The translations under genes were made by a program, and so were the position numbers. 64,000 nucleotides of DNA from Tsuneonella troitsensis (GTDB lineage: Bacteria > Pseudomonadota > Alphaproteobacteria > Sphingomonadales > Sphingomonadaceae). The notes under the pieces were generated by a model. It saw only the letters and a program-made list of their open reading frames with translations. It was not told where the DNA came from and did not search any database. Below, piece by piece: positions 16,101 through 41,754 of the stretch (position 1 is the stretch's first letter; each line of letters starts with the position of its first letter). Location of the stretch: positions 124,001 to 188,000 of the forward strand of contig NZ_LMAU01000002.1 of assembly GCF_001441535.1 (NCBI RefSeq). The letters run 5' to 3'.

Positions 16101-18932
<2,832 letters not shown>

Positions 18933-29250: not shown

Positions 29251-31485
29251 ATGGCAGTTGCCGATCATTATTCTCCCTCTGGAGCAGCGCATCGCATCCC
29301 GCGGTGGAGGCGCCGCTTCATAGTCGCGAGCCGTCGTGCCAACCTGTTTGCAGTTCTGACCGTCGGGGCGGCGGTGGCCTTTGCCTTCATGGCCTGGACG
29401 ACCTGGTACACTTTCACGAGTGCGCCTCCCACCGGACAGCTGCTGCCATCACGCAAGGTTGCGGGTCTTCTGATCGGCACTCTCGTGCCTGCAATGGCAC
29501 TCATAGTGCTGTTCGGTCGCTGGCTTGCCTTGAGGAGAGCGGAAGGAACCACGGCTCGCCTCCACGTGCGCCTGGTATTCTTCTTTTCGCTGGTTGCCGC
29601 AGTGCCGACCCTGCTCGTCGCCGCGTCCGCAGCTTTCCTGTTCCAGTCGGGAGTGGATTTCTGGTTCTCGGACAATTCGCGCGGCGTGATGCAGAATGCG
29701 AACAATCTTGCGCAGGGGTATTACGAGCAGAACCAGCTCCAGGTGAGCCAGCAAAGCATCTCGATGGCAAGCGACATTGGATACTATCTTGGCAACATGG
29801 ACTTGAGCGATCCGCTTTTTACGGACGTCTACAGCCAGCAAATGCTCTCTCGTGATATCAATGAGTCGGCGATATTGCAGCGATTGGACAATGCCACTCT
29901 TCGCACTGCGGCAGTCGCCAACCTTCAGATCGATAACGAGCCGCTGAGGTTTGCCCAACGAGCCATTCCAATTCTCATGGAAGGAGAGCCGGTCTTTGCC
30001 AGCGGCAATCCGACGCGCATCGAAGCACTAGTTCCGATCGATTCCGAGGCGGGTGTCTACTTATACACGGCACGAAATACGGAATCGTCAGGCTTCAGCC
30101 AATGGCGAAACGCTCTCGCAGTGGCGAGCGGTTACGACCAACTGACAAATCGCGCCCGTGAGATACAGCTTCGCTTCAACCTCGCGCTTTTCTTCGTCAG
30201 TCTTCTTCTCGTTGGCCTTGCGGTATGGTTTGCGCTGCGATTTGCCGATCGGCAGGTCGAGCCTCTGGCTCAACTCGTCGGGGCGGCGCGCAGGATAGGG
30301 GCTGGCGATTTCGTGCGGGTCGAAGGGCGGACCGGTTCTGACGAGATCGGAATGCTCAATCGCGCGTTCAATCGCATGGTCGGCCAGATCGAGCAGCAGA
30401 CCGCGGCTCTGCTTGGCGCGAACCGACAGCTCGAAGAGCGGCGCGCGTTCATCGAGGCGGTGATCGAATCCATCTCCGCCGGGATCGTGACGCTCGATCG
30501 GGAGGGACGCGTTCTGTTGATGAACAGTTCGGCACAGGAACTGCTCTTGGGCGACAAGGGGCCGGTCCCGTCCGCCGTCCCGCTGGCCGATGTCGCACCG
30601 CAGCTCGCGACACTCGCCGATGCGCGGCTTTCGAGCGGCATCGTCAACTGGACCAAGGGCGGTGAACTGCTCACCCTTGCGGTCAAGGTGGCCGATGCGC
30701 CCGATGGTCGGGTGATCACGTTCGAGGACATTACCCGGCAGATTCTCGATCAGCGACAGGCCGCCTGGTCCGACGTGGCACGCCGCATCGCTCACGAAAT
30801 CAAGAACCCGCTGACTCCGATCCAGCTCGCTACCGAGCGCCTCAAGCGGCGGTACCGCAAGCAGATCGATACCGACGGTGAACTGTTCGACGAACTCACC
30901 AATACGATCGTGCGGCAGGTGGGCGATCTCAGGAAGATGGTGGACGAATTTTCCAGCTTTGCGCGTTTGCCCAAGCCGGTCTTTCGCCCCGAAGACGCGC
31001 AGGACCTCGTCAAGCAGGCGCTGTTCCTGCAGGAAGTCGCCCATCCTCACATCGACTTTGCTTTCGAGCCGGGATCGGAGGCCGCGGTCACGATGGCCTG
31101 CGACCGCCATCAGGTCGGCCAGGCCATGACCAACGTCCTCAAGAATGCGGTGGAGGCGATCGAAGCGCGCGCGCGGAACGCGGAACCCGATTATCGCGGG
31201 AAGATCGCGGTTGCGCTCTCGTCGACCGACGAATTCGTTTCCGTTAGCGTCGACGACAACGGCGTAGGCCTTCCGCAAGATCGCGAACGCATAGTCGAGC
31301 CTTACGTGACGACGCGCGAAAAGGGCACGGGCCTTGGCCTCGCGATCGTCAACAAGATCGTCGAGGAGCACGGCGGCGACATGACCTTTGCCAATGCGGC
31401 GGACGGAGCGCGTGGAGGCACGCGCGTAACCTTGCGCTTCGCCCGTGATCCGCTTGCCGAACGCGGCACGGTGGCAGCCGAATGA
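29251..31485 (+). CDS. ntrY: Sensor histidine kinase NtrY
   Basis: Transmembrane kinase of the NtrYX pair, implicated in nitrogen, redox and envelope control in alphaproteobacteria. The 744-residue protein has three N-terminal membrane helices (within 30-135), a periplasmic sensor region (about 135-310), a fourth helix (about 315-335), HAMP, PAS (EAVIESISAGIVTLDREG), the phosphorylated histidine in [19 protein letters not shown] (about H514), and HATPase with DDNGVGLPQDRERIVEPY. It is 57 nt after ntrC and 16 nt before ntrX. Confidence 0.95.
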   Translation: MAVADHYSPSGAAHRIPRWRRRFIVASRRANLFAVLTVGAAVAFAFMAWTTWYTFTSAPPTGQLLPSRKVAGLLIGTLVPAMALIVLFGRWLALRRAEGTTARLHVRLVFFFSLVAAVPTLLVAASAAFLFQSGVDFWFSDNSRGVMQNANNLAQGYYEQNQLQVSQQSISMASDIGYYLGNMDLSDPLFTDVYSQQMLSRDINESAILQRLDNATLRTAAVANLQIDNEPLRFAQRAIPILMEGEPVFASGNPTRIEALVPIDSEAGVYLYTARNTESSGFSQWRNALAVASGYDQLTNRAREIQLRFNLALFFVSLLLVGLAVWFALRFADRQVEPLAQLVGAARRIGAGDFVRVEGRTGSDEIGMLNRAFNRMVGQIEQQTAALLGANRQLEERRAFIEAVIESISAGIVTLDREGRVLLMNSSAQELLLGDKGPVPSAVPLADVAPQLATLADARLSSGIVNWTKGGELLTLAVKVADAPDGRVITFEDITRQILDQRQAAWSDVARRIAHEIKNPLTPIQLATERLKRRYRKQIDTDGELFDELTNTIVRQVGDLRKMVDEFSSFARLPKPVFRPEDAQDLVKQALFLQEVAHPHIDFAFEPGSEAAVTMACDRHQVGQAMTNVLKNAVEAIEARARNAEPDYRGKIAVALSSTDEFVSVSVDDNGVGLPQDRERIVEPYVTTREKGTGLGLAIVNKIVEEHGGDMTFANAADGARGGTRVTLRFARDPLAERGTVAAE

Positions 31486-31501
31486 CCAGTCTGGAGGACC
31501 A

Positions 31502-32878
31502 ATGGCGCTTGATATCCTGATCGTCGACGACGAACGCGACATTCGCGAGCTCGTCGCCGGCGTTCTCAGCGACGAAGGTTACGAATGTCGAACGGCCGGG
31601 GACAGTACGACTGCGTTGGCCGCGGTCGACGAGCGCCGGCCAAGCCTCGTCCTGCTCGACGTCTGGTTGCACGGCAGCCCGATGGATGGGCTGGAGGTGC
31701 TCGACGAAATCAAGAAGCGCGAACCGGAACTGCCGGTCATCATCTTCTCCGGGCACGGTAACATCGACACCGCCGTCAGCGCCGTCAGCCGCGGCGCGAT
31801 GGACTTTATCGAGAAGCCGTTCGAAGCGGAAAAGCTGCTGTTGCTGGTCCAGCGGGCAACCGAGACCGAACGTCTTCGCCGCGAGAACACGCGCCTTCGT
31901 GAAGGGTTCGCAAGAGGCGAGGAATTCACCGGCAACTCGGCCGCGATCAATGCCGTGCGCGCCACATTGAAGCGGGTGGCCAGCACGGGAAGCCGCGTCC
32001 TGATAAGCGGGCCGGCGGGGGCGGGCAAGGAAGTCGCGGCACGGTTGCTTCACTCCTGGAGTCCGCGCGCCGACAATGCCTTCGTAATCGTCAATTCCGC
32101 GCGCATCACGCCCGAACGGTTCGAACAGGAGCTGTTCGGCGAGGAGGCCGAGGGCAAGCTGGTCAGGCCCGGACTGCTCGAAATGGCGGACGGGGGAACG
32201 CTGTATCTCGACGAAGTGGCCGATATGCCGCTGTCCACGCAGGCGCGCATCCTGCGCGTGCTCACGGAGCAGAGCTTCGTCCGCGTCGGCGGCAATCGGC
32301 AGGTCGGCGTCGATGTCAGGGTGGTGTCGTCCAGTTCGCGCGATCTAGCGCGGGAAATGGAAGAGAAGCGCTTTCGCGAAGACCTGTTCTACCGGCTCAA
32401 CGTGGTGCCGGTCGCCATCCCGTCGCTGGCCGAACGCCGCGACGACATACCTGCGTTGGCCGAGCACTTCTTTACCCGATACGCTGCGGAACAGGGCATC
32501 CCGCCGCCCTTGGTCAGCCAGGAAGCGGTCGCCGCGCTTCAGGCCTACGACTGGCCCGGCAACGTCCGCCAGATGCGCAACGTCGTAGAAAGAACGATCA
32601 TCCTCACTCCGCGGGAGCGACTCGAGACGATCGAGGCGGACATGCTTCCTGGCGAAGTGACGGGAAGCAGACTGGGCGGGGGCGGCGCAGTTTCGTCGTT
32701 GATGGGTGTCCCGTTACGCGAAGCGCGCGAGAGTTTCGAACGCGAATATCTGAACATCCAGATCCGCCGGTTTTCGGGAAATATCTCGAAAACGGCGAGC
32801 TTTATCGGGATGGAACGCTCCGCCCTTCATCGCAAGCTGAAGCTGCTGGGAATGGGCGATCGCCGCGACGAGGACTAG
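31502..32878 (+). CDS. ntrX: Response regulator NtrX (lacks GAFTGA)
   Basis: Cognate regulator of NtrY. The 458-residue protein has a receiver domain (D53 in LLDVWLHGS), an AAA+ domain with Walker A SGPAGAGKE and GGTLYLDEVADM, and a C-terminal Fis-like helix-turn-helix (FSGNISKTASFIGMERSALHRKL). Where NtrC has GAFTGA, NtrX reads LFGEEAEGKLVRPGLLE, so it should not remodel sigma-54 holoenzyme. This agrees with other alphaproteobacterial NtrX proteins that work with sigma-70 or as repressors. ATG 31502 has a strong GGAGG. Confidence 0.95.
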   Translation: MALDILIVDDERDIRELVAGVLSDEGYECRTAGDSTTALAAVDERRPSLVLLDVWLHGSPMDGLEVLDEIKKREPELPVIIFSGHGNIDTAVSAVSRGAMDFIEKPFEAEKLLLLVQRATETERLRRENTRLREGFARGEEFTGNSAAINAVRATLKRVASTGSRVLISGPAGAGKEVAARLLHSWSPRADNAFVIVNSARITPERFEQELFGEEAEGKLVRPGLLEMADGGTLYLDEVADMPLSTQARILRVLTEQSFVRVGGNRQVGVDVRVVSSSSRDLAREMEEKRFREDLFYRLNVVPVAIPSLAERRDDIPALAEHFFTRYAAEQGIPPPLVSQEAVAALQAYDWPGNVRQMRNVVERTIILTPRERLETIEADMLPGEVTGSRLGGGGAVSSLMGVPLREARESFEREYLNIQIRRFSGNISKTASFIGMERSALHRKLKLLGMGDRRDED

Positions 32879-33031
32879 CCAAGATTTTCTTCTGGAACGC
32901 AGGTGCAGCAAAAGCATTTGCGAATTGAGGCGGGCGCGCCATACTCGGCAGCGATTTCGGCGGGGGTTCGAAAGAATTCTCGCCTGATTGCGGACCGCAG
33001 AAGCGGCCGCCAACAACAGGAGACGTTTCAA

Positions 33032-33589
33032 GTGTCCAGTTCCCGCACGTTGTCCGCGCGTCCGAAGCCTCCGAAGGAGGACGATCAGGAAGCCGCTTCT
33101 CCGCCTTCGAGTGGCAAGCAGCAGGCCCTTCAGGATGCGTTCCTGAACCTCTTGCGCAAGAACAAGACCCCGGTCACGATGTTCCTCGTTAAGGGGGTAA
33201 AGCTCCAGGGTATCGTCACCTGGTTCGACAACTTCTCGATCCTGCTACGCCGCGATGGGCAGTCGCAACTCGTGTACAAGCATGCCGTCTCGACGATCAT
33301 GCCGGCCAATCCGCTGGATGCGGCGCAGTTCGCCAGCCAGGGATCGGGCGCGAAGCAGCGCTTGCTGCAGGACGTGTTCCTGAGCCGCGTTCGCGAGGCG
33401 GGCGTTCAAGTGACCATGTTCCTCGTCAACGGGGTCATGCTTCAGGGCAAGATCGCCGCTTATGACCTGTTCTGCACGTTGCTGGAACGCGACGGATACG
33501 TGCAGCTTGCGTACAAGCACGCGGTATCGACGATCCAGCCGGCGACGGCGGTCGATTTGTCCGACGAATTCGAAGGCGACAGCGACTGA
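33032..33589 (+). CDS. hfq: RNA chaperone Hfq with two tandem Sm domains
   Basis: Post-transcriptional regulator that pairs small RNAs with mRNAs. Instead of one Sm domain of about 70 residues, this 185-residue protein has two: about 29-95 ([11 protein letters not shown] to the YKHA motif at 82-85) and about 108-172 ([11 protein letters not shown] to YKHA at 161-164). Both keep the proximal-face KH pair; both have Phe where E. coli Hfq has Y25. The basic rim patch is weaker in copy two. Three such chains would complete a six-lobed ring. GTG 33032 follows ACAGGAGACG. hflX follows, as in most proteobacteria. Confidence 0.93.
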
Positions 33590-33606: not shown

Positions 33607-34905
33607 ATGGGAGAGGTCTCGCGCGGCGCGCGGGCCCTTGTCGTTTGTCCCGACGTGCGTGGACGTCACCATGATCTTGAGCCCGAGGCTCGGCTTGAGG
33701 AGGCGTGCGGCCTTGCGCTTGCCATCGGCATCGTGGTCGCCGATGCGTCCGTCTTGCCGATCAGGCAGGTTCGGCCCGGCACTCTGTTCGGCGCCGGCCA
33801 GGTCGACAACATCCGTATCGCCTGCGAGCAACATGAGGCCGAACTGGTCGTCATCGACGGTGCGCTGACACCGATCCAGCAGCGTAATCTCGAAGACGCC
33901 CTGAAGCGCAAGGTCATTGATCGCACCGGCCTGATCCTCGAAATTTTCGGCGAGCGAGCAGCGACCGCCGAAGGCCGGCTGCAGGTCGAATTAGCGCACC
34001 TCGATTACCAGCAGAGCCGCCTCGTTCGGTCATGGACGCACTTGGAGCGTCAGCGCGGCGGATTCGGCTTTCTCGGCGGACCCGGCGAAACCCAGATCGA
34101 GGCCGACCGACGGATGATCCGCCAGCGGATGGCGCGCCTTCGCAAGGAACTCGAAAGCGTGCGGAAAACCCGCGCACTCCACCGCGAACGGCGCGGGCGT
34201 GCGCCTTGGCCGATCATCGCGCTGGTGGGCTACACGAATGCGGGCAAGTCGACCCTGTTCAACCGCCTGACCGGGGCGGAGGTGATGGCTGAGGATTTGC
34301 TGTTCGCCACACTCGACCCGACGATGCGATCGATCGCGCTTCCCGGCGTGGAGAAGGCGATCATTTCGGACACGGTAGGCTTTATCTCCGACTTGCCGAC
34401 CCAACTCGTGGCCGCATTCCGCGCGACGCTGGAAGAGGTAACCGGGGCGGACCTGATTCTCCATGTGCGGGACATCGCAAACCCGTCGACACAGGCGCAA
34501 AAGGCTCAGGTTCTCGAGGTGCTCGGCGATCTCGGCGTGATCGAGGGGGAGGGGGGCGCAAACATCCCGATCATCGAAGTCTGGAACAAGATCGATCTCC
34601 TGTCTGCGGAAGCGTCGGAAGATGTGACGGCTGCAGCTTCATCCGACGATATGACGGTCGCCATCTCCGCCGTATCGGGGCAGGGGGTGGACGATTTGCT
34701 TGCCCGCCTCGGCGAACAGCTCACGCAAGGCGCAAGGGTTCACGAATTCGTCCTGCCTGCCAGCGCCGGACGACAGATCGCATGGCTCCACGCACATGGC
34801 GACGTGGTGGAAGAGGGTGAGGCGGGTACTGGACCCGAAGGCCCGTTGCGCAGGCTCGCGGTTCGACTCAACCCAAAGGAGCTTGGGCAGTTCGAGACGC
34901 TATGA
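33607..34905 (+). CDS. hflX: Ribosome-associated GTPase HflX
   Basis: A 432-residue GTPase that splits stalled or stress-damaged ribosomes. It has the N-terminal HflX domain with the conserved RPGTLFGAGQ and IDRTGLILEIFGERA, then the Gly-rich RGGFGFLGGPGETQIEADRR, and a GTPase domain with G1 GYTNAGKSTLFNRL, G3 DTVGFISDLP and G4 NKID. It follows hfq by 17 nt. The 3' end overlaps convergent mazG by 6 nt. It is the last plus-strand gene before the dif-like site. Confidence 0.95.
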   Translation: MGEVSRGARALVVCPDVRGRHHDLEPEARLEEACGLALAIGIVVADASVLPIRQVRPGTLFGAGQVDNIRIACEQHEAELVVIDGALTPIQQRNLEDALKRKVIDRTGLILEIFGERAATAEGRLQVELAHLDYQQSRLVRSWTHLERQRGGFGFLGGPGETQIEADRRMIRQRMARLRKELESVRKTRALHRERRGRAPWPIIALVGYTNAGKSTLFNRLTGAEVMAEDLLFATLDPTMRSIALPGVEKAIISDTVGFISDLPTQLVAAFRATLEEVTGADLILHVRDIANPSTQAQKAQVLEVLGDLGVIEGEGGANIPIIEVWNKIDLLSAEASEDVTAAASSDDMTVAISAVSGQGVDDLLARLGEQLTQGARVHEFVLPASAGRQIAWLHAHGDVVEEGEAGTGPEGPLRRLAVRLNPKELGQFETL

Positions 34906-35661
34906 CCGTTCGGATGCCTTGACCGCCTGCCAGAGTTTCTCCAGCTCTTCGAGCGAACGGTCGGCGAAATTTCCGTCCGCCATCCGTTCCATGGCGCGAA
35001 AGCGGCGCTCGAATTTCGCGTTCGCAGCGCGCAGCGCGTCTTCGGGTGCGATGCCATGAGCCCGCACCAGGTTGACCGCTGCGAACAGAAGGTCTCCCGC
35101 CTCCTCCATGCGGCCGGCCTCATCGCTTTCGGCTAGTTCACGCATTTCCTCGACGAGCTTTTCGGCCGGACCTTCGGTGTCCGGCCAATCGAAGCCCACC
35201 CTGGCTGCGCGCTTTTGAAGCTTGTCCGCCCGCATCAGTGCCGGGAGTGCCATCGCAACTCCGTCGAGCGCGCTGGTTGCGCCCTTGGCGTCCCTTTCGG
35301 CGGCCTTGAGTGCTTCCCAGCGCGCGTCACGGGCTTCCCCCGGCGGTGGGGCGTCGCCAAAGATGTGGGGATGGCGAGCTTCCAGTTTGTCGGCAATCGA
35401 GCGCGCGACATCGTCGAATGCAAACGCACCGTCTTCCTCGGCTATCCGCGCCTGGAAGACGACTTGGAACAGCAAGTCGCCAAGTTCATCCCGGATGTCG
35501 GCAAGATCGCCGCGAGAAACCGCGTCGGCAACTTCGTATGCTTCCTCGATCGTGTGCGGGACGATGGTCTCGAATCGCTGCGCACGATCCCAATCGCAAC
35601 CACTCACCGGGTCGCGCAAGGTCGCCATGATGCGGAGGAGGCGGTCTAGCTGCTCGGACAT
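34900..35661 (-). CDS. mazG: Nucleoside triphosphate pyrophosphohydrolase MazG
   Basis: Hydrolyses NTPs to NMP and pyrophosphate, a house-cleaning and (p)ppGpp-related role. The 253-residue protein has two MazG repeats: the first with CDWDRAQRFETIVPHTIEEAYE and DELGDLLFQVVF, the second with EEAGDLLFAAVNLVRAHG. ATG 35661 (MSEQLDRLLRIM) matches the family N-terminus. The start codon lies two bases from the dif-like site, so its leader and promoter must overlap or read through the XerCD-binding sequence. Confidence 0.95.
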   Translation of the reverse strand: MSEQLDRLLRIMATLRDPVSGCDWDRAQRFETIVPHTIEEAYEVADAVSRGDLADIRDELGDLLFQVVFQARIAEEDGAFAFDDVARSIADKLEARHPHIFGDAPPPGEARDARWEALKAAERDAKGATSALDGVAMALPALMRADKLQKRAARVGFDWPDTEGPAEKLVEEMRELAESDEAGRMEEAGDLLFAAVNLVRAHGIAPEDALRAANAKFERRFRAMERMADGNFADRSLEELEKLWQAVKASERS

Positions 35662-35663
35662 GC

Positions 35664-35691
35664 TGCGATGATAATATATATTATGTTAAAT
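35664..35691 (+). other. dif: Chromosome dimer resolution site dif (XerCD site)
   Basis: A 28-bp AT-rich site in a GC-rich chromosome: left (XerC) arm TGCGATGATAA, 6-bp spacer TATATA, right (XerD) arm TTATGTTAAAT. The right arm is identical to that of E. coli dif, and 22 of 28 positions agree overall, comparing with the E. coli sequence from memory. GGGNAGGG octamers flip strand at this point: plus-strand copies to the left begin at 6231, 13601, 14087, 14957, 25582, 27632, 27764, 28171, 34546 and 34678; minus-strand copies to the right begin at 37199, 38556, 40247, 40394, 40536, 46242, 49824, 56612, 56683, 61925 and 62739. The long plus-strand gene run ends here and a minus-strand run begins. 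XerC/XerD binding is inferred. Confidence 0.88.
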
Positions 35692-35716
35692 CGAATTCGG
35701 CTGGAGAGGTTCATTC

Positions 35717-35887
35717 TCACCCCATCGCCATGCTGAAGATCAAAAACACCGCTACGAAAATGCCTCCCCAGATCAGACCGATGCGAACGCCTTCCTTCCA
35801 ACCGAGCCGATAGGATGCGACCGCGCTTCCGGCCAAGATCAGCCACGCAAAAAGTGCGATCAACTGGACAGCGCCGAATTCGCTCAC
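35717..35887 (-). CDS. Small membrane protein, unknown
   Basis: A 56-residue protein with two hydrophobic helices (about 7-25, IALFAWLILAGSAVASY, and 37-54, GLIWGGIFVAVFLIFSM) joined by a short basic loop (RLGWKEGVR). GTG 35887 overlaps the MBL-hydrolase stop by 4 nt (GTGA), which supports it as a real coupled gene at the end of the metG-tatD operon. No family recognised. Its stop is 25 nt from the dif-like site. Confidence 0.65.
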   Translation of the reverse strand: MSEFGAVQLIALFAWLILAGSAVASYRLGWKEGVRIGLIWGGIFVAVFLIFSMAMG

Positions 35888-36651
35888 AGCACGATCTCCA
35901 AGCCGTCGTAGCCGACTTCGACGCCCTTGGGCACTTCGGCAGCCAGCGTGCGATAATCCATCGACTTGTCGAGATGCGTCAAGACGGTCCGTCCTGCAGC
36001 GCACTTTCGCGATAGTTCCAGCGCCATGTCGAGATGCGCGTGCGTAGGATGCGGCCGCCGGCGCAGGCAGTCGACAACCAGTAAGTCGACGCGCTGAAAA
36101 AGCTCGACCAATGCCGGAACGATCTCGCTGAAGTCCGTGGCATAACCGATTGATTTCCCGTCGGCATCGAAGCGAAATGCCGTGGACCTGGCCGGCCCGT
36201 GAGGCATTTGGCAATGACCGATGCCGAACCCGGCGAATATCCGTAGGCGTTCCAGCGTATTGAGTTCGCAGATCGTCGGATACCCATGCTCACCGGCAAA
36301 GATGTAACCGAAGCGAGCGCGCAATCGCCTGGCGGTTTCGTTCGCTGCAAAAGCAGGCAGCGGCCCCGACCGATCGTATCGCATCACGCGCAAGTCATCG
36401 ATACCGTGACAATGATCGGCATGATCGTGCGTCCAGAAAACGCCGTCGACCTTGTCTATCCCGTTGGCGAGCAGCTGGTGGCGAAGATCTGTCGAAGTAT
36501 CGACAAGCAACCGGCGGCCCTCGGCGTTTTCGACCATGATCGATACCCGGGTCCGCCGGTTCCGGGGCTCCGAGGGATCGCATTCACCCCAGTCGTCACC
36601 GATGCGCGGCACACCCGTCGACGTGCCGGACCCAAGCATGAGGAGCTTCAT
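35884..36651 (-). CDS. MBL-fold metallohydrolase, PhnP-like
   Basis: A 255-residue metallo-beta-lactamase-fold phosphodiesterase-like hydrolase. It opens MKLLMLGSGTSTGVPRIG, has the metal-binding THDHADHCHG, and ends with conserved HAHLDMALELSRK and LTHLDKSMDYRTL regions like PhnP, a cyclic-phosphate phosphodiesterase. The substrate is unknown; there are no phn genes nearby. The start overlaps the tatD stop by 4 nt. Confidence 0.88.
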   Translation of the reverse strand: MKLLMLGSGTSTGVPRIGDDWGECDPSEPRNRRTRVSIMVENAEGRRLLVDTSTDLRHQLLANGIDKVDGVFWTHDHADHCHGIDDLRVMRYDRSGPLPAFAANETARRLRARFGYIFAGEHGYPTICELNTLERLRIFAGFGIGHCQMPHGPARSTAFRFDADGKSIGYATDFSEIVPALVELFQRVDLLVVDCLRRRPHPTHAHLDMALELSRKCAAGRTVLTHLDKSMDYRTLAAEVPKGVEVGYDGLEIVL

Positions 36652-37427
36652 GCAGCCGCTTTTCCGAACAAACGGAAGAAGTTGTCGCTCGTTTCGTTCG
36701 CCAGGTGTTCGAGTTCCGTGCCACGCAAATCCGCGACGAACGCGGCGGTGTCGCGCACGAATGCAGGTTCGCACGGCCTGCCGCGATGCGGGATCGGGGC
36801 AAGGAACGGGCTATCGGTTTCGACCAGCATCTTCTCGATGGGAAGTTCTCTCGCGATTTCCTGAAGTTCCTTCGCATTCTTGAACGTAACTATTCCCGAT
36901 AGGGATATCGAGAGGCCAAGGTCGAGGACGGTACGGGCAAATCCGCGCGAGGCGGTAAAGCAGTGGATCAGGGCCGGGAATGCGCCCTTCTCCCTCTCGT
37001 CGGACAGGATAGCCGCCGTGTCTTCTTCCGCATCGCGAGTGTGGATGATGATCGGCAGGCCAGTTTCGCGCGCCACGCCGATATGCATCCGGAACAGATC
37101 GCGCTGCACGGACCGATCCGACTTGTCATAATAATAATCGAGGCCGCTTTCCCCGATGCTGATCACCTTTGGGTGTGAGGCGGCTTCGAGCAATGCGTCC
37201 CTGCCCAGGTCGGCATGGCCATCGGCTTCGTGCGGGTGAATGCCCACGCTGGCCCAGATATCCGAGTTGTCCGCCGCGGTACCGATGACCGCATCCCATT
37301 CGCTCCGACGGGTCGAGATGTTGAGCATACCGGTCACACCGGCCGCGCGGGCGCGATCGAGCACACCGCTCCGGTCCTCGACGACGCCCTCGTATTCGAG
37401 GTGGCAATGGCTGTCGATCAGCCTCAC
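36648..37427 (-). CDS. tatD: TatD family metal-dependent hydrolase
   Basis: A 259-residue TIM-barrel hydrolase, probably a 3'-5' DNA exonuclease or D-aminoacyl/DNA repair-related enzyme as in E. coli TatD. Metal-binding and family motifs: DSHCHLEY at the start, GIHPHEA, GESGLDYYYDKS, IHTRDAEEDT and VETDSPFLAP. GTG 37427 overlaps the metG stop by 4 nt and gives the normal length. Confidence 0.93.
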   Translation of the reverse strand: MRLIDSHCHLEYEGVVEDRSGVLDRARAAGVTGMLNISTRRSEWDAVIGTAADNSDIWASVGIHPHEADGHADLGRDALLEAASHPKVISIGESGLDYYYDKSDRSVQRDLFRMHIGVARETGLPIIIHTRDAEEDTAAILSDEREKGAFPALIHCFTASRGFARTVLDLGLSISLSGIVTFKNAKELQEIARELPIEKMLVETDSPFLAPIPHRGRPCEPAFVRDTAAFVADLRGTELEHLANETSDNFFRLFGKAAA

Positions 37428-38986
37428 GCAGCCTCTTCGGCAGCGAGTTCGAGGCGTGGAAAGACCCCGACCGGTTGTTCGATCCGGCCGCCATTCGACG
37501 CGAGCTTCGACAGCCAATCCTTGTCTTGAAGTGCTGCAAAGTCCCGTGCGTCGACCGCAATTCCCATCTGGTCGAGCAGTGAATCGACGCTGCCCGGTAC
37601 CACCGGGCGGATGGCGATCGCCAGGTCGCGGACCTGCCGAACCAGCGTCATCAATACTGCCGCCATTCGATCTGGATCGGTCTTGCGCAACGCCCACGGA
37701 GCCTGGTCGTCGACATAGGCGTTGCAGGCGAATACGGCGCGCATCCAAGCCTCGATCCCTTCGCTGAAGGCGAGGGCGTGGAAGCGTTCCTGCATCGTGG
37801 CGAGCTCCCCTGCCACCACCGCGGACAATTCCGCATCGGCCGGGGATAAAGGGAGATCGCCCGTGAGTCTGCCTTCCAGGTTCTTGAAAACCATCGACAA
37901 AACCCGTTGTGCCAGATTTCCGAAGCTGTTCGCGAGTTCGGCATTGCAGCGTGTCACGATCGCTTCATCCGAGAAGCTGCCGTCTTTCCCGAACGGCACT
38001 TCCGCGAGCAGAAAATACCGCAACTGATCGGTCCCGTATCGCTCCGCCAGTTCGATCGGGTCGACCACGTTGCCTGTGGACTTCGACATCTTTTCCCCGC
38101 GGTGGAGGAGAAAGCCGTGGCCGAAGATCGCCTTGGGAGCCGGGAGGCCCGCGCTTTTCAGGAACGCCGGCCAGTAGACGGCGTGGAAACGGACGATGTC
38201 CTTGCCGATCAGGTGCAGGTCGGCGGGCCAGAACCGGTCGAACTCCCCTTCTTGCTCCGGAAAACCTATTCCGGTCAGATATGTCGTCAGAGCGTCGACC
38301 CACACATACATCACGTGGCCAGGGCTGCCCGGCACGGGCACACCCCAGTCGAAACTGGTGCGGCTTACCGACAGGTCGCGAAGGTCGTTCCCCTTCAGAA
38401 ACGCGAGCACTTCGTTACGCCGGCTCTCGGGCTCGAGGAAACCCGGGGTCTCGTTCAGCTCGATCAGATAGTCGCGATACTTCGACAGCCGGAAAAACCA
38501 GCTCTCCTCGACCTGCCATTCCACAGGGGTACCTTGGGGTGAAAGCTTCGTACCCCCCTCCCCGTCGACCAGTTCGCCTTCGCCGTAGAAGGCCTCGTCG
38601 CGCACCGAATACCATCCTTCGTAGCGATCGAGATAAAGGTCGCCGGCGTCTGCCATCGCTTGCCACAAGGCTTGGCTCGCCGCGTGGTGCTGCGCTTCGG
38701 TGGTCCGCCGAAACGCGCTGTAGCCGATGCCAAGTGTGGCGCACATCTGCCGGAAATATCCGGACATTTCGTCCGCGAACTCGAGCGTGTCACGCCCTGC
38801 AGCGCGCGCGGTCTTGTCCATTTTCAGCCCGTGCTCATCCGTCCCGGTCACAAGGCGAACGTCGAAACCTTGCGCCTTTTTGACCCGAGCGATCACATCG
38901 GCAGCGATTGCTTCGTAGGCATGGCCGATATGCGGCTTGCCGTTGGGGTAGTTGATCGCGGTGGTGAGATAATAAGGGTCAGGCAT
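37424..38986 (-). CDS. metG: Methionyl-tRNA synthetase
   Basis: Class I synthetase that charges tRNA-Met. The 520-residue protein has the HIGH signature in YPNGKPHIGHAYE and KMSKS in GEKMSKSTGNVV. The connective-peptide region (EGWYSVRDEAFY to WQVEESWFFRLS) contains no cysteine, so the zinc knuckles of the E. coli type are missing. It ends without the extra C-terminal tRNA-binding (EMAP-like) domain. It overlaps holB by 8 nt. Confidence 0.96.
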   Translation of the reverse strand: MPDPYYLTTAINYPNGKPHIGHAYEAIAADVIARVKKAQGFDVRLVTGTDEHGLKMDKTARAAGRDTLEFADEMSGYFRQMCATLGIGYSAFRRTTEAQHHAASQALWQAMADAGDLYLDRYEGWYSVRDEAFYGEGELVDGEGGTKLSPQGTPVEWQVEESWFFRLSKYRDYLIELNETPGFLEPESRRNEVLAFLKGNDLRDLSVSRTSFDWGVPVPGSPGHVMYVWVDALTTYLTGIGFPEQEGEFDRFWPADLHLIGKDIVRFHAVYWPAFLKSAGLPAPKAIFGHGFLLHRGEKMSKSTGNVVDPIELAERYGTDQLRYFLLAEVPFGKDGSFSDEAIVTRCNAELANSFGNLAQRVLSMVFKNLEGRLTGDLPLSPADAELSAVVAGELATMQERFHALAFSEGIEAWMRAVFACNAYVDDQAPWALRKTDPDRMAAVLMTLVRQVRDLAIAIRPVVPGSVDSLLDQMGIAVDARDFAALQDKDWLSKLASNGGRIEQPVGVFPRLELAAEEAA

Positions 38987-39941
38987 CGGTCAGGCTGCTA
39001 GCGGCGGCTGCCGAGGCGAGCAAGCCACCGATCTGCATGACCAGAATGCCCGGGTCGAAGTTGTGGGTGGGAGCCTGCGCCGAAAGGCGGACCACGTCTG
39101 CATGCGCATCGACGATCGCGGGCAAGGCGGCTCGGGGTGCCGTGGCCGCCATTCGAGACAATGTAGCGCGAGCGAGATCGAGCACGGCGGCCATGCGTTC
39201 GCGGTCCGGTCGCGCACCGATTTCGCCTGCGAGCTTGCCGCGCAACTCGAAGTCCGGATCGCCGGCACGCGCGATCTCGCGCATCAGCGAGTCGACCGGA
39301 CCGAGGTCTTGCGACACGAATTCGATCGCTGCTCCCGGCGATCCGGCCGCCGCCGCGACGGCGGCTGCGCGGGTTGCGCCATCCGTTTCGGGCGCGTGGT
39401 CCGCAACCACCCGCGCAATTGCCGCGTCGTCCAGGGTGGGAAATCGCAGGAGCCGGCAGCGCGACCGGATGGTGGGAAGCAGCCGCGCCGGTCGATGCGC
39501 GACGAGGAGGAAAAATGTGCCCGCAGGAGGCTCTTCCAGGCTCTTGAGAAGAGCGTTGGATGATCCCGTTTCCATATCGTCGGCCGGATCGACGATTACT
39601 ACGCGTCGGCTGCCGAGCGTTGGCCGCGTCGTCAGGCGCCGCTGCATTTCGCGAATTTGCGCGATCTTGATGTTTCGCGCCAGTTCGAACGACTTGCCGT
39701 CGTCGCGCTTCTTCTCTTCCTTGTCGTCTTTGGGAAGGTTCGTGAGAACAAGGATATCGGGATGCTGACCTACCGGCTGCGGCACTCCCGTTTCGGCTAC
39801 GAGTTCGCGAGCAGCCGCGAGCGCGAAATGCATTTTACCGAGGCCCTTCTTGCCGGCCAGCAGCCAGGCATGATGCATCCTCTCACCGGCGAGGCCTTCA
39901 CGCCACTCGCGCCAGGCTGCATCGTGACCGATCAAGGTCAT
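38979..39941 (-). CDS. holB: DNA polymerase III subunit delta'
   Basis: Clamp-loader subunit of the replicative polymerase. The 320-residue AAA+ protein starts MTLIGHDAAWREWREGL and has a P-loop-like LAGKKGLGKMHFALAAA, IVDPADDMETGSSNALLKSLEEPP (Walker B and sensor region), and the SRC motif RSRCRLLRF. No zinc-binding cysteines are seen between Walker A and B. Placement between tmk and metG is the classic tmk-holB-(metG)-tatD order. Confidence 0.93.
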   Translation of the reverse strand: MTLIGHDAAWREWREGLAGERMHHAWLLAGKKGLGKMHFALAAARELVAETGVPQPVGQHPDILVLTNLPKDDKEEKKRDDGKSFELARNIKIAQIREMQRRLTTRPTLGSRRVVIVDPADDMETGSSNALLKSLEEPPAGTFFLLVAHRPARLLPTIRSRCRLLRFPTLDDAAIARVVADHAPETDGATRAAAVAAAAGSPGAAIEFVSQDLGPVDSLMREIARAGDPDFELRGKLAGEIGARPDRERMAAVLDLARATLSRMAATAPRAALPAIVDAHADVVRLSAQAPTHNFDPGILVMQIGGLLASAAAASSLTDA

Positions 39942-40576
39942 GCCGCTTCCGCAATAAACGGTGCGATTGCGCGCATGATCGCCTGATGGACCGTTTCCGG
40001 CGCTTCACCGCCCGGAATGATCGCAAAGTCCGATGGGCTTTCTCCGGCCAATCGTGCGAACGTATCGCTGACGGCACGGTGGTAGGGTGCATCCCGATTC
40101 CCGATCGCATCGCCCACGTCGCCATCGCGCAAGCGCGTGCGCTCCAGGGCCGTTTCAGCGTCGACGGTCAAAATAATCGTCAGATCGGGGCGAAGGCCGT
40201 CGCTGCCGATTGCATGAAGCGCCTGCACGACTTCGTCACCGATGCCCCCTGCCCCACCCTGATATGCGCGGCTCGAATCGACGAAACGATCCGATACGAC
40301 CCAGCGTCCCTCTTCGATCGCCGGACGAATCAGCCGGGCGACGTGATCGGCGCGGGCCGCCGCGAACAACAACGCCTCGGCCTGCGGGCCCCACCCTTCC
40401 CCAGGCGGATCCAGCAGAAGGCGCCTGATCGCCTCGGCGCCCGGCGTTCCTCCGGGCTCGCGAGTGAGTTCGACTGCGATGCCCCGGTGTCGCAGCGCGT
40501 CCACGAGCAGTCGTGCTTGGGTGGACTTCCCGCAACCCTCCCCGCCCTCGAGCGCGATGAACCGACCGCGGGCCAT
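39938..40576 (-). CDS. tmk: Thymidylate kinase
   Basis: Phosphorylates dTMP to dTDP. The 212-residue protein has the P-loop ALEGGEGCGKSTQARLL, the DRF-type motif VVSDRFVDSSRAYQGG, and a lid region around ETALERTRLRDGDVG. The start overlaps the upstream carboxypeptidase stop by 1 nt and its stop overlaps holB by 4 nt. Confidence 0.96.
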   Translation of the reverse strand: MARGRFIALEGGEGCGKSTQARLLVDALRHRGIAVELTREPGGTPGAEAIRRLLLDPPGEGWGPQAEALLFAAARADHVARLIRPAIEEGRWVVSDRFVDSSRAYQGGAGGIGDEVVQALHAIGSDGLRPDLTIILTVDAETALERTRLRDGDVGDAIGNRDAPYHRAVSDTFARLAGESPSDFAIIPGGEAPETVHQAIMRAIAPFIAEAA

Positions 40577-41754
40577 CAGAACAAGCCGGCCACGCCGTTC
40601 ACCAGTCTTTCGGCGATGTTGGCCTCCTCGATCGGCTGCGCCGCGACGAGCGGTACACGCGATGGGCGAAGGCCTTCGACCGCTATCTCGAGTTCGGCAA
40701 CCTGTTCACCCTGCGCAATGGGCGCGCGGAGCGGGCCTTCGTAGCGGATCGATAGAGTGACCTTGGCGGTCTGACCGACCGGAAGGTCGTAACCGATCGG
40801 GCGCTGGGCGATGAGCGGCACGGTTCTGGCAGATCCTCCCTGTACGCGCGCTTCCCCCACAACTTCACCCTGGTCGAACAGCGGATGACCCTCGAAGGAT
40901 CGGAACCCCCACTCGAGGAAAGCGCGCGAGGCGGCCTTCTGCATTCGCCCGGTCGGCGATCCGGCCACGATCGAGACGAGCCTCCGACCATCGCGCTCCG
41001 CGCTCCCCAGAAACCCAAACCCTGCCTGGTTGGTGAAGCCCGACTTTATCCCGTCCGCGCCCTCCACCACTCCGGTCACGGGATCGTGATTGCGCTGTTC
41101 GATATTGTTGAACTTCAAACGACGGTTGCCGAAGTATCGCTCGTAGAGAGCCGGGTGCCGCGTGATCATCGCCTCCGCCAATGTGGCGAGATCGCGGGCC
41201 GTCGTGAAAGTACGCCCTTCGTCCATCCATCCGTTCGGCGTGGAGAAGTGGCTGTCGCGCATCCCGATCGAACGCGCTGTCGCATTCATGCGCTCGCTCC
41301 ACGCCGGGAGCGATCCGGCCAGCCCATGCGCGAGCACGGCGGCACCGTCATTGGCTGAAACGGTGGTGATTCCGTACAGGAGGGCATCGACGGTGACGCG
41401 CTGCCGGTTTGCCAGGAACATGGTCGATCCGACGCCATGCCAGTCCGACCATATCTCGTCATTGACGAGCAACTGCTGCTCGGGCGAAATCTTTCCGGCC
41501 GCGATCATTTCGAAGACGGTGAAGGCCGTCATCACTTTGGTGATCGACGCCGGCATGAAACGGCGATCCGGTTCGCGGGCGTACAGCGTCTGGCCCGAAG
41601 ACAGATCCACCAGCAGAGCGATAGGCACCTCCAATGGAGGAGGAGCCGCCGGCTCGATCTTCGGGAGATCGGCGCTTGCGGCGCCGCTGCCGGCGACCAG
41701 CGCAACGCAAGTAAGCAGAAACTTTGCGGTTGTCGTCAACGATACTCCCGCCAC
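40576..41754 (-). CDS. D-alanyl-D-alanine carboxypeptidase (PBP5/6 family)
   Basis: Periplasmic low-molecular-weight penicillin-binding protein that trims pentapeptide stems. The 392-residue protein has a signal peptide (about 1-28, FLLTCVALVAGSGAASA). It has the three active-site motifs: SxxK in PASITKVM, SxN in VSANDGAA and KSG in GIKSGFTN. The C-terminal PBP5_C domain is followed by an amphipathic tail (IEEANIAERLVNGVAGLF) that should anchor it to the membrane. It is first in the tight run dac-tmk-holB-metG-tatD. Confidence 0.94.
   Translation of the reverse strand: MAGVSLTTTAKFLLTCVALVAGSGAASADLPKIEPAAPPPLEVPIALLVDLSSGQTLYAREPDRRFMPASITKVMTAFTVFEMIAAGKISPEQQLLVNDEIWSDWHGVGSTMFLANRQRVTVDALLYGITTVSANDGAAVLAHGLAGSLPAWSERMNATARSIGMRDSHFSTPNGWMDEGRTFTTARDLATLAEAMITRHPALYERYFGNRRLKFNNIEQRNHDPVTGVVEGADGIKSGFTNQAGFGFLGSAERDGRRLVSIVAGSPTGRMQKAASRAFLEWGFRSFEGHPLFDQGEVVGEARVQGGSARTVPLIAQRPIGYDLPVGQTAKVTLSIRYEGPLRAPIAQGEQVAELEIAVEGLRPSRVPLVAAQPIEEANIAERLVNGVAGLF

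Follow-up and report, generated by a model that had tools for sequence, protein, structure and literature searches.

A probable chromosomal dif site in Tsuneonella troitsensis and its recurrent gene address beside mazG in Alphaproteobacteria

The 28-bp sequence at positions 35664-35691 of a 64,000-nucleotide stretch of the Tsuneonella troitsensis genome (this whole stretch is called the window below) is very probably the chromosomal dif site. Taken whole, the evidence is best explained by a single chromosomal dif site for dimer resolution by XerCD and FtsK, an explanation that we hold to be close to certain. As a dif site the 28-mer is ordinary and textbook. The junction in which it lies, with mazG on one side and the genes for an MBL-fold metallohydrolase (MBL), tatD, metG, holB and tmk on the other, appears to have been inherited from an early alphaproteobacterial ancestor.

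Results

Sequence and uniqueness of the site

The site has two 11-bp arms around a 6-bp centre, a layout that fits an XerCD-type dif. Read on the plus strand, the XerC-side arm TGCGATGATAA (35664-35674) has GATAA at its inner end, the central hexamer TATATA (35675-35680) has six bases, as in E. coli dif, and the XerD-side arm TTATGTTAAAT (35681-35691) is identical to the E. coli arm. The initial annotation of this DNA, which described a dif-like 28-mer with these three parts and agreement with E. coli dif at 22 of 28 positions, was right as to both sequence and place. The runner-up in the 64-kb window agrees at 17 positions, and the best scores in ten simulated 2.88-Mb genomes with the dinucleotide statistics of the window were 18-20; all of these scores were computed against what we take to be the E. 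coli dif sequence. Searches for further dif matches in the 2.9-Mb genome, a draft in nine contigs, returned only this site: the XerD 11-mer occurs in a single copy, and the 22-mer GATAATNTATATTATGTTAAAT has a single match genome-wide with up to 3 mismatches allowed. The 28-mer is intergenic and has a lower GC content than the chromosome, as is expected of dif, and the AT-rich island reported around it is real, with 36% GC at 35650-35699 versus about 62% in the surroundings.

The resemblance to E. coli dif and its XerCD-FtsK system extends to the 28-bp 11-6-11 layout, the XerD arm, the uniqueness of the site, the FtsK-orienting octamers (KOPS, GGGNAGGG) that point at it and its position at the terminus. 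Unlike E. coli dif, the site has an XerC arm that ends in GATAA, not CGCATAA, it lies 2 bp upstream of mazG, and its KOPS are predicted. The putative dif of Novosphingobium aromaticivorans, a member of the same taxonomic order, shares GATAAT in the inner XerC arm and TTATG in the inner XerD arm, but differs from the Tsuneonella site in its centre and outer XerD arm; it is listed as intergenic, at a distance of 17.8 kb from the maximum of GC skew (Carnoy and Roten 2009, Table 1, PMC2731167). The dif of Dinoroseobacter shibae, likewise alphaproteobacterial and at the terminus, is known from an experimental setting, being reported as the peak of vesicle-enriched DNA (PMC7901474).

Gene neighbourhood

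On the left of the site, a plus-strand run of dusB, ntrB-like, ntrC-like, histidine kinase, ntrX, hfq and hflX genes ends convergently against mazG. The histidine kinase occupies the place of ntrY and was named from position. ntrX (31445-32878) matches NF051870 with 746 bits; hfq (32903-33589), which encodes two Hfq stretches (a tandem Hfq), matches NF010691 with 295.6 bits; and hflX (33607-34905) matches TIGR03156 with 447 bits. mazG, encoding a nucleoside triphosphate pyrophosphohydrolase, follows on the minus strand (34900-35661; NF007113, 302.8 bits, cut-off 208), with dif upstream of it and a gap of 2 bp between its start codon and the site.

All genes to the right of dif are on the minus strand. 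A small ORF of 56 amino acids, probably a membrane protein, lies between dif and the MBL gene (35717-35887); it has matches (E <= 0.01) at 34 of 82 related dif loci (50 from the family, 12 from the order and 20 from the class), and all 34 belong to the family of the window. It is followed by MBL (35884-36651; NF038231, 222 bits, under the cut-off of 360), a tatD-family exonuclease gene (36648-37424; TIGR00010, 265.8 bits), for both of which the start was set by eye, and metG, encoding methionine-tRNA ligase (37424-38986; TIGR00398, 461.7 bits). Beyond these lie holB for the DNA polymerase III delta' subunit (38979-39941; NF005677, 179.7 bits, and TIGR00678, 163.5 bits, both under cut-off), tmk for dTMP kinase (39938-40576; TIGR00041, 152.5 bits), a dacA-like D-Ala-D-Ala carboxypeptidase gene (40576-41754; best match NF008489, 180.4 bits, under cut-off) and an mltB-like gene.

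The initial annotation had the plus-strand run end at the 28-mer and a nine-gene minus-strand run begin just past it. This is not the case: the actual switch is about 760 bp to the left, where hflX meets mazG. Since the genes beyond dif are also on the minus strand, the site is embedded in a co-directional run, immediately upstream of mazG, the last gene of that run, and is off the convergent switch.

The genes gyrA, carA, carB, dnaG and rpoD, which had been named as notable company for a terminus, are all present in the window. Among 13 Sphingomonadales genomes, that of T. troitsensis included, 11 have gyrA (16101-18932 in the window) at a distance of 14-43 kb from dif; the exceptions are G046 (166 kb) and G048 (1.6 Mb). 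Three genomes elsewhere in the class have it 83 kb, 100 kb and 853 kb from dif, and a gyrA close to the terminus seems to be a feature of chromosome layout in the order Sphingomonadales.

KOPS polarity, GC skew and parS

KOPS polarity, which inverts at dif according to a published account (PMC13342612), was read from the strand of the octamers on either side of the site. On the left of dif 10/10 KOPS in the window are on the plus strand and on the right 12/12 are on the minus strand, so that all 22 point at dif. The orientation flips between the last plus-strand octamer (34678-34685) and the first minus-strand one (37199-37206), a 2.5-kb interval between 34678 and 37199 that contains dif. In 17 further stretches sampled from the same contig, 17/17 KOPS on the left are plus and 43/44 on the right are minus (60/61 toward dif). 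The complete relatives G002 and G009 likewise have the KOPS switch and dif in one interval, with the bounding KOPS 3.7 kb and 1.1 kb apart. The claim that the window spans the terminus is therefore supported by a polarity switch at the site in the window and in two complete relatives.

We relied on KOPS polarity because GC skew is too weak here to serve as the main test of the terminus: it stays within about ±0.06 in 2-kb windows and about ±0.05 in 20-kb samples, and resolves only to tens of kilobases. Along the contig the skew goes from positive to negative, but to the right of dif the 195-215 kb sample keeps a small positive value, and among the sampled stretches clearly negative values first appear in one that begins about 65 kb to the right of dif; with the sign change off the site, skew alone does not pin dif. 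In G002 and G009 the skew changes sign, weakly, in the same part of the chromosome as dif.

parS lies 41-50% of the chromosome away from dif, taking the shorter way round, in all 12 of the single-contig relatives examined. The KOPS switch in the window and the opposite position of parS in these 12 relatives both place dif at the terminus. One of the 12, G048, has parS-like sites elsewhere too, and its position was taken from its cluster of three; of its seven parS-like sites, four are dispersed away from this main cluster. dnaA was tried as a marker of the origin and rejected, being 16-37% of the chromosome from dif in four complete genomes of the same genus. Its distance from parS is 0.47-1.1 Mb in the same-genus genomes G002, G003, G004 and G009 and 0.13-0.44 Mb in eight other complete genomes of the order, and the GC skew changes sign around parS in two genomes sampled every 130-150 kb or so. 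Judged by parS distance and skew, dnaA is not at the origin in Tsuneonella.

Relatives in the family and order

A 21-mer of dif, searched with up to 2 mismatches in 98 genomes (that of T. troitsensis included), matched in 83, and 76 of these contain one match only; the remaining 15 of the 98 had no match at 2 mismatches. Within the family, 52 of 59 searched genomes have a match, and setting aside T. troitsensis itself and two genomes with the site on short contigs (G028 and G035) leaves 49 relatives. At least one flank of the junction is kept in 49/49 of these and both flanks, mazG together with genes of the opposite MBL-tatD-metG-holB-tmk side, in 37. Three loci have only mazG and nine have only the right-hand side; two of these nine (L273 and L280) are at a contig edge and in a third (L286) mazG overlaps the edge of the site, which leaves six mazG-less loci that speak clearly. 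In 24 of the 49 relatives an estimated <=30 bp separate dif from the start of mazG, and the site takes up the mazG 5' region or leader in about half of the family.

KOPS near these sites, counted in loci of 10 kb (20 kb for two) and mostly within about 5 kb of dif, point toward dif in 243/250 cases at 50 family loci, including a second site in G037, and in 38/42 at 12 loci from other families of the order. At three of these 12 loci (G059, G065 and G068) mazG and the right-hand genes are found together within 10 kb; the other nine have one side or none within that distance. G057 has two KOPS toward dif and two away from it. In G081, which has a 3-mismatch match, 0/3 KOPS point toward the site, so this match is probably not the dif of that genome. 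The second dif-like site of G037, CGGTCCGATAATATATCTTATGTTAAAT, is on a 131-kb contig (L276) and was excluded from the address count; 3/3 nearby KOPS point toward it, it has none of the usual dif neighbours, and it perhaps belongs to a chromid or plasmid.

Over the 50 family sites the inner XerC arm, GATAA, is nearly invariant and the outer six positions vary. Position 7 of this arm is G in 49/50 of them. The CGCATAA form of the arm is found at 9/12 sites from other families of the order and 15/20 class sites. The specificity of XerC may have changed alongside the GATAA arm of the family.

The address across the class

From 77 alphaproteobacterial genomes drawn evenly, 51 have mazG over the family cut-off, and the other 26 were left out of the dif-mazG counts. 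A dif match at <=2 mismatches is present in 40 of the 51; the 11 dropped genomes comprise 10 with only 3-mismatch matches, some of them near mazG and uncounted, and one without any match. Entering only the best dif match of each genome, we found dif within 1 kb of mazG in 18 of the 40, within 5 kb in 26 and within 30 kb in 33; it is farther away in one and on another contig in six. Without T. troitsensis and G106, which belong to the family of the window, the corresponding counts are 16, 24 and 31 of 38.

In all 33 genomes linked within 30 kb, dif is upstream of mazG, and 32 of them share one relative orientation of the two. In the remaining genome, G140, dif is almost palindromic and its orientation ambiguous, and it was read on the plus strand with 3 mismatches; the count of KOPS toward or away from it is unaffected. 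dif lies between mazG and metG in 26 of the 28 genomes with all three on one contig (24 of 26 without the two family members), although in G127, counted among the 26, mazG and metG are 252 kb apart and "between" therefore says little.

Twenty class loci, picked by hand from 19 of the 33 linked genomes plus G157, were read over up to 20 kb; MBL was sought in the class sample at these 20 loci. KOPS point toward dif in 106/111 cases. At 16 of the 19 linked loci dif separates hflX and mazG from tatD, holB and other members of the cluster; G108 and G127 have the left side only, and G116 has no hflX within the stretch read. The recurrent block runs on past the strand switch between hflX and mazG and takes in hfq and, at most loci, ntrX. 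In G157 dif is a good match and has a KOPS switch, yet mazG is 223 kb from it.

At least 120 loci (of <=8 kb) in named genomes contain the exact dif 21-mer. Among the matches listed, mazG is nearby in 26 of 31 loci with an alphaproteobacterial title and also at L158, outside that set. It is nearby in 0/88 loci (<=8 kb) without such a title among the matches listed, where the class was taken from record titles and some of the 88 may be chance matches. Three gammaproteobacterial-titled loci (L151, L155 and L161) carry the same 21-mer with tatD nearby, and L151 also has holB and tmk, so that the right-hand flank may predate the class or have arisen twice. The screen that gave these neighbours also took in the 3-kb loci of the 98-genome search (L003-L032), which were used in no other count.

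Recombinases and FtsK

The genome encodes an FtsK gamma domain (PF09397, 77.5 bits, cut-off 30.6) and two recombinase stretches, which were scored as matched stretches rather than whole ORFs. One is nearest XerD (270 bits, cut-off 329.6) and exceeds the threshold of the tyrosine recombinase model NF001399 (287 bits, cut-off 279), and the other is nearest XerC (253 bits, cut-off 335); both fall short of the curated XerC and XerD cut-offs. In E. coli, FtsK is guided to dif by KOPS and activates XerD through its gamma domain, and XerC and XerD resolve dimers. What the DNA shows is the site and its uniqueness, the KOPS switch, the opposition of parS in relatives, and genes for XerC-like, XerD-like and FtsK proteins. 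Binding of XerCD, their activation and recombination at dif would follow by analogy with the E. coli system. Homologous recombination would leave the sister chromosomes joined as a dimer; FtsK, loaded on oriented KOPS, would pump along both arms to dif at the closing septum, where its gamma domain would activate XerD; and XerD and XerC would then exchange strands at the 28-mer and split the dimer. The KOPS switch, the distance of parS and the presence of FtsK gamma and recombinase genes thus support the reading first given to this site, that of a chromosomal dif at the terminus, and the tests of polarity, uniqueness and replicon are all in its favour.

Discussion

Other identities for the 28-mer can be weighed against this reading. 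It could mainly be the promoter of mazG, with its AT-rich hexamers acting as a -10 box and its likeness to dif a by-product. Here 2 bp separate dif from the mazG start codon, the two are similarly close in the 24 family relatives with a gap of <=30 bp, and in such genomes there is hardly any space for another promoter. Nevertheless, the match to dif spans both arms and the 6-bp centre, other families can keep the 28-mer even with mazG kilobases away, and KOPS converge on it. A scan of 35500-36000 gave four weak sigma-70-like pairs versus a shuffle mean of 0.1; none on the minus strand overlaps the site, and the two pairs that do overlap dif are on the plus strand and point away from mazG. A mainly promoter role is in our view highly improbable. 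We give practically no credence to the 28-mer being the attachment site of a phage or integrative element that exploits Xer, and not a working dif. About a quarter of proteobacterial dif sites adjoin mobility genes (Carnoy and Roten, PMC2731167), but this one has a single genome copy, is flanked on both sides by core genes that recur across the class, and coincides with the KOPS switch; no repeated site flanking an insert, the mark of an Xer attachment site, is found around this single-copy sequence and its core-gene flanks. The draft state of the genome, in nine contigs, might suggest that the contig represents a chromid, a secondary replicon carrying a separate dif, a case that the initial annotation had itself raised. 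This is very unlikely, to the point of being negligible: the site is the only dif match of the genome and adjoins core genes, the same site and neighbours lie on the single contig of the complete relatives G002, G003, G004 and G009, and the window carries gyrA, rpoD, dnaG and metG.

A more difficult matter is why the address of this chromosomal dif recurs. The likeliest reason would be that an ancestral junction was inherited and protected by the constraint of KOPS: dif may have stayed put because nearby rearrangements would misorient KOPS or shift dif off the polarity switch. A serious rival is that the address is an old operon, dacA-tmk-holB-metG-tatD-MBL-mazG, in which dif is a mere passenger and does not hold its position. 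These genes are all co-directional with mazG last, and among the 28 genomes where one contig carries dif, mazG and metG, 10 have a mazG-metG span of only 3.2-4.1 kb. However, the recurrent block extends past the point where hflX and mazG converge, to hfq and in most cases ntrX, and dif is still at the junction in genomes with kilobases of extra DNA there. In addition, dif stays with the right-hand genes at the nine of 49 family loci where mazG was not found on the left, six of which are clear, and it falls outside the mazG-metG interval in just two of the 28 genomes, which have 682 kb and 26 kb between mazG and metG. We consider the passenger explanation a real possibility, though we lean against it. 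Proximity to mazG could also be functional, in that occupancy of dif by XerCD and FtsK late in the cell cycle could gate mazG transcription and so link processing of the terminus to nucleotide-pool cleaning before division; we regard this as improbable.

In the earlier literature, proteobacterial dif sites are stated to have no apparent specific genetic environment, and the terminus to be prone to DNA mobility (Carnoy and Roten 2009, PMC2731167). Our counts for Alphaproteobacteria differ from the former statement. The main text of Kono et al. (2011, PMC3025954) does not contain the terms "neighbor", "flanking genes" or "intergenic". We found no description of a class-wide mazG-dif address in the open-licence literature, and it may be described outside that literature.

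Identification of dif marks the terminus in Tsuneonella. It is the address and not the site itself that is the interesting part, and it deserves a systematic survey: that dif can be recognised by its neighbours in many alphaproteobacterial families means more order around it than older literature suggested. The mazG / MBL-tatD-metG-holB-tmk address makes it possible to locate dif in genomes with too noisy a sequence or skew signal, and it raises the testable question of why a mobility-prone terminus has kept the mazG-dif-MBL junction for so long.
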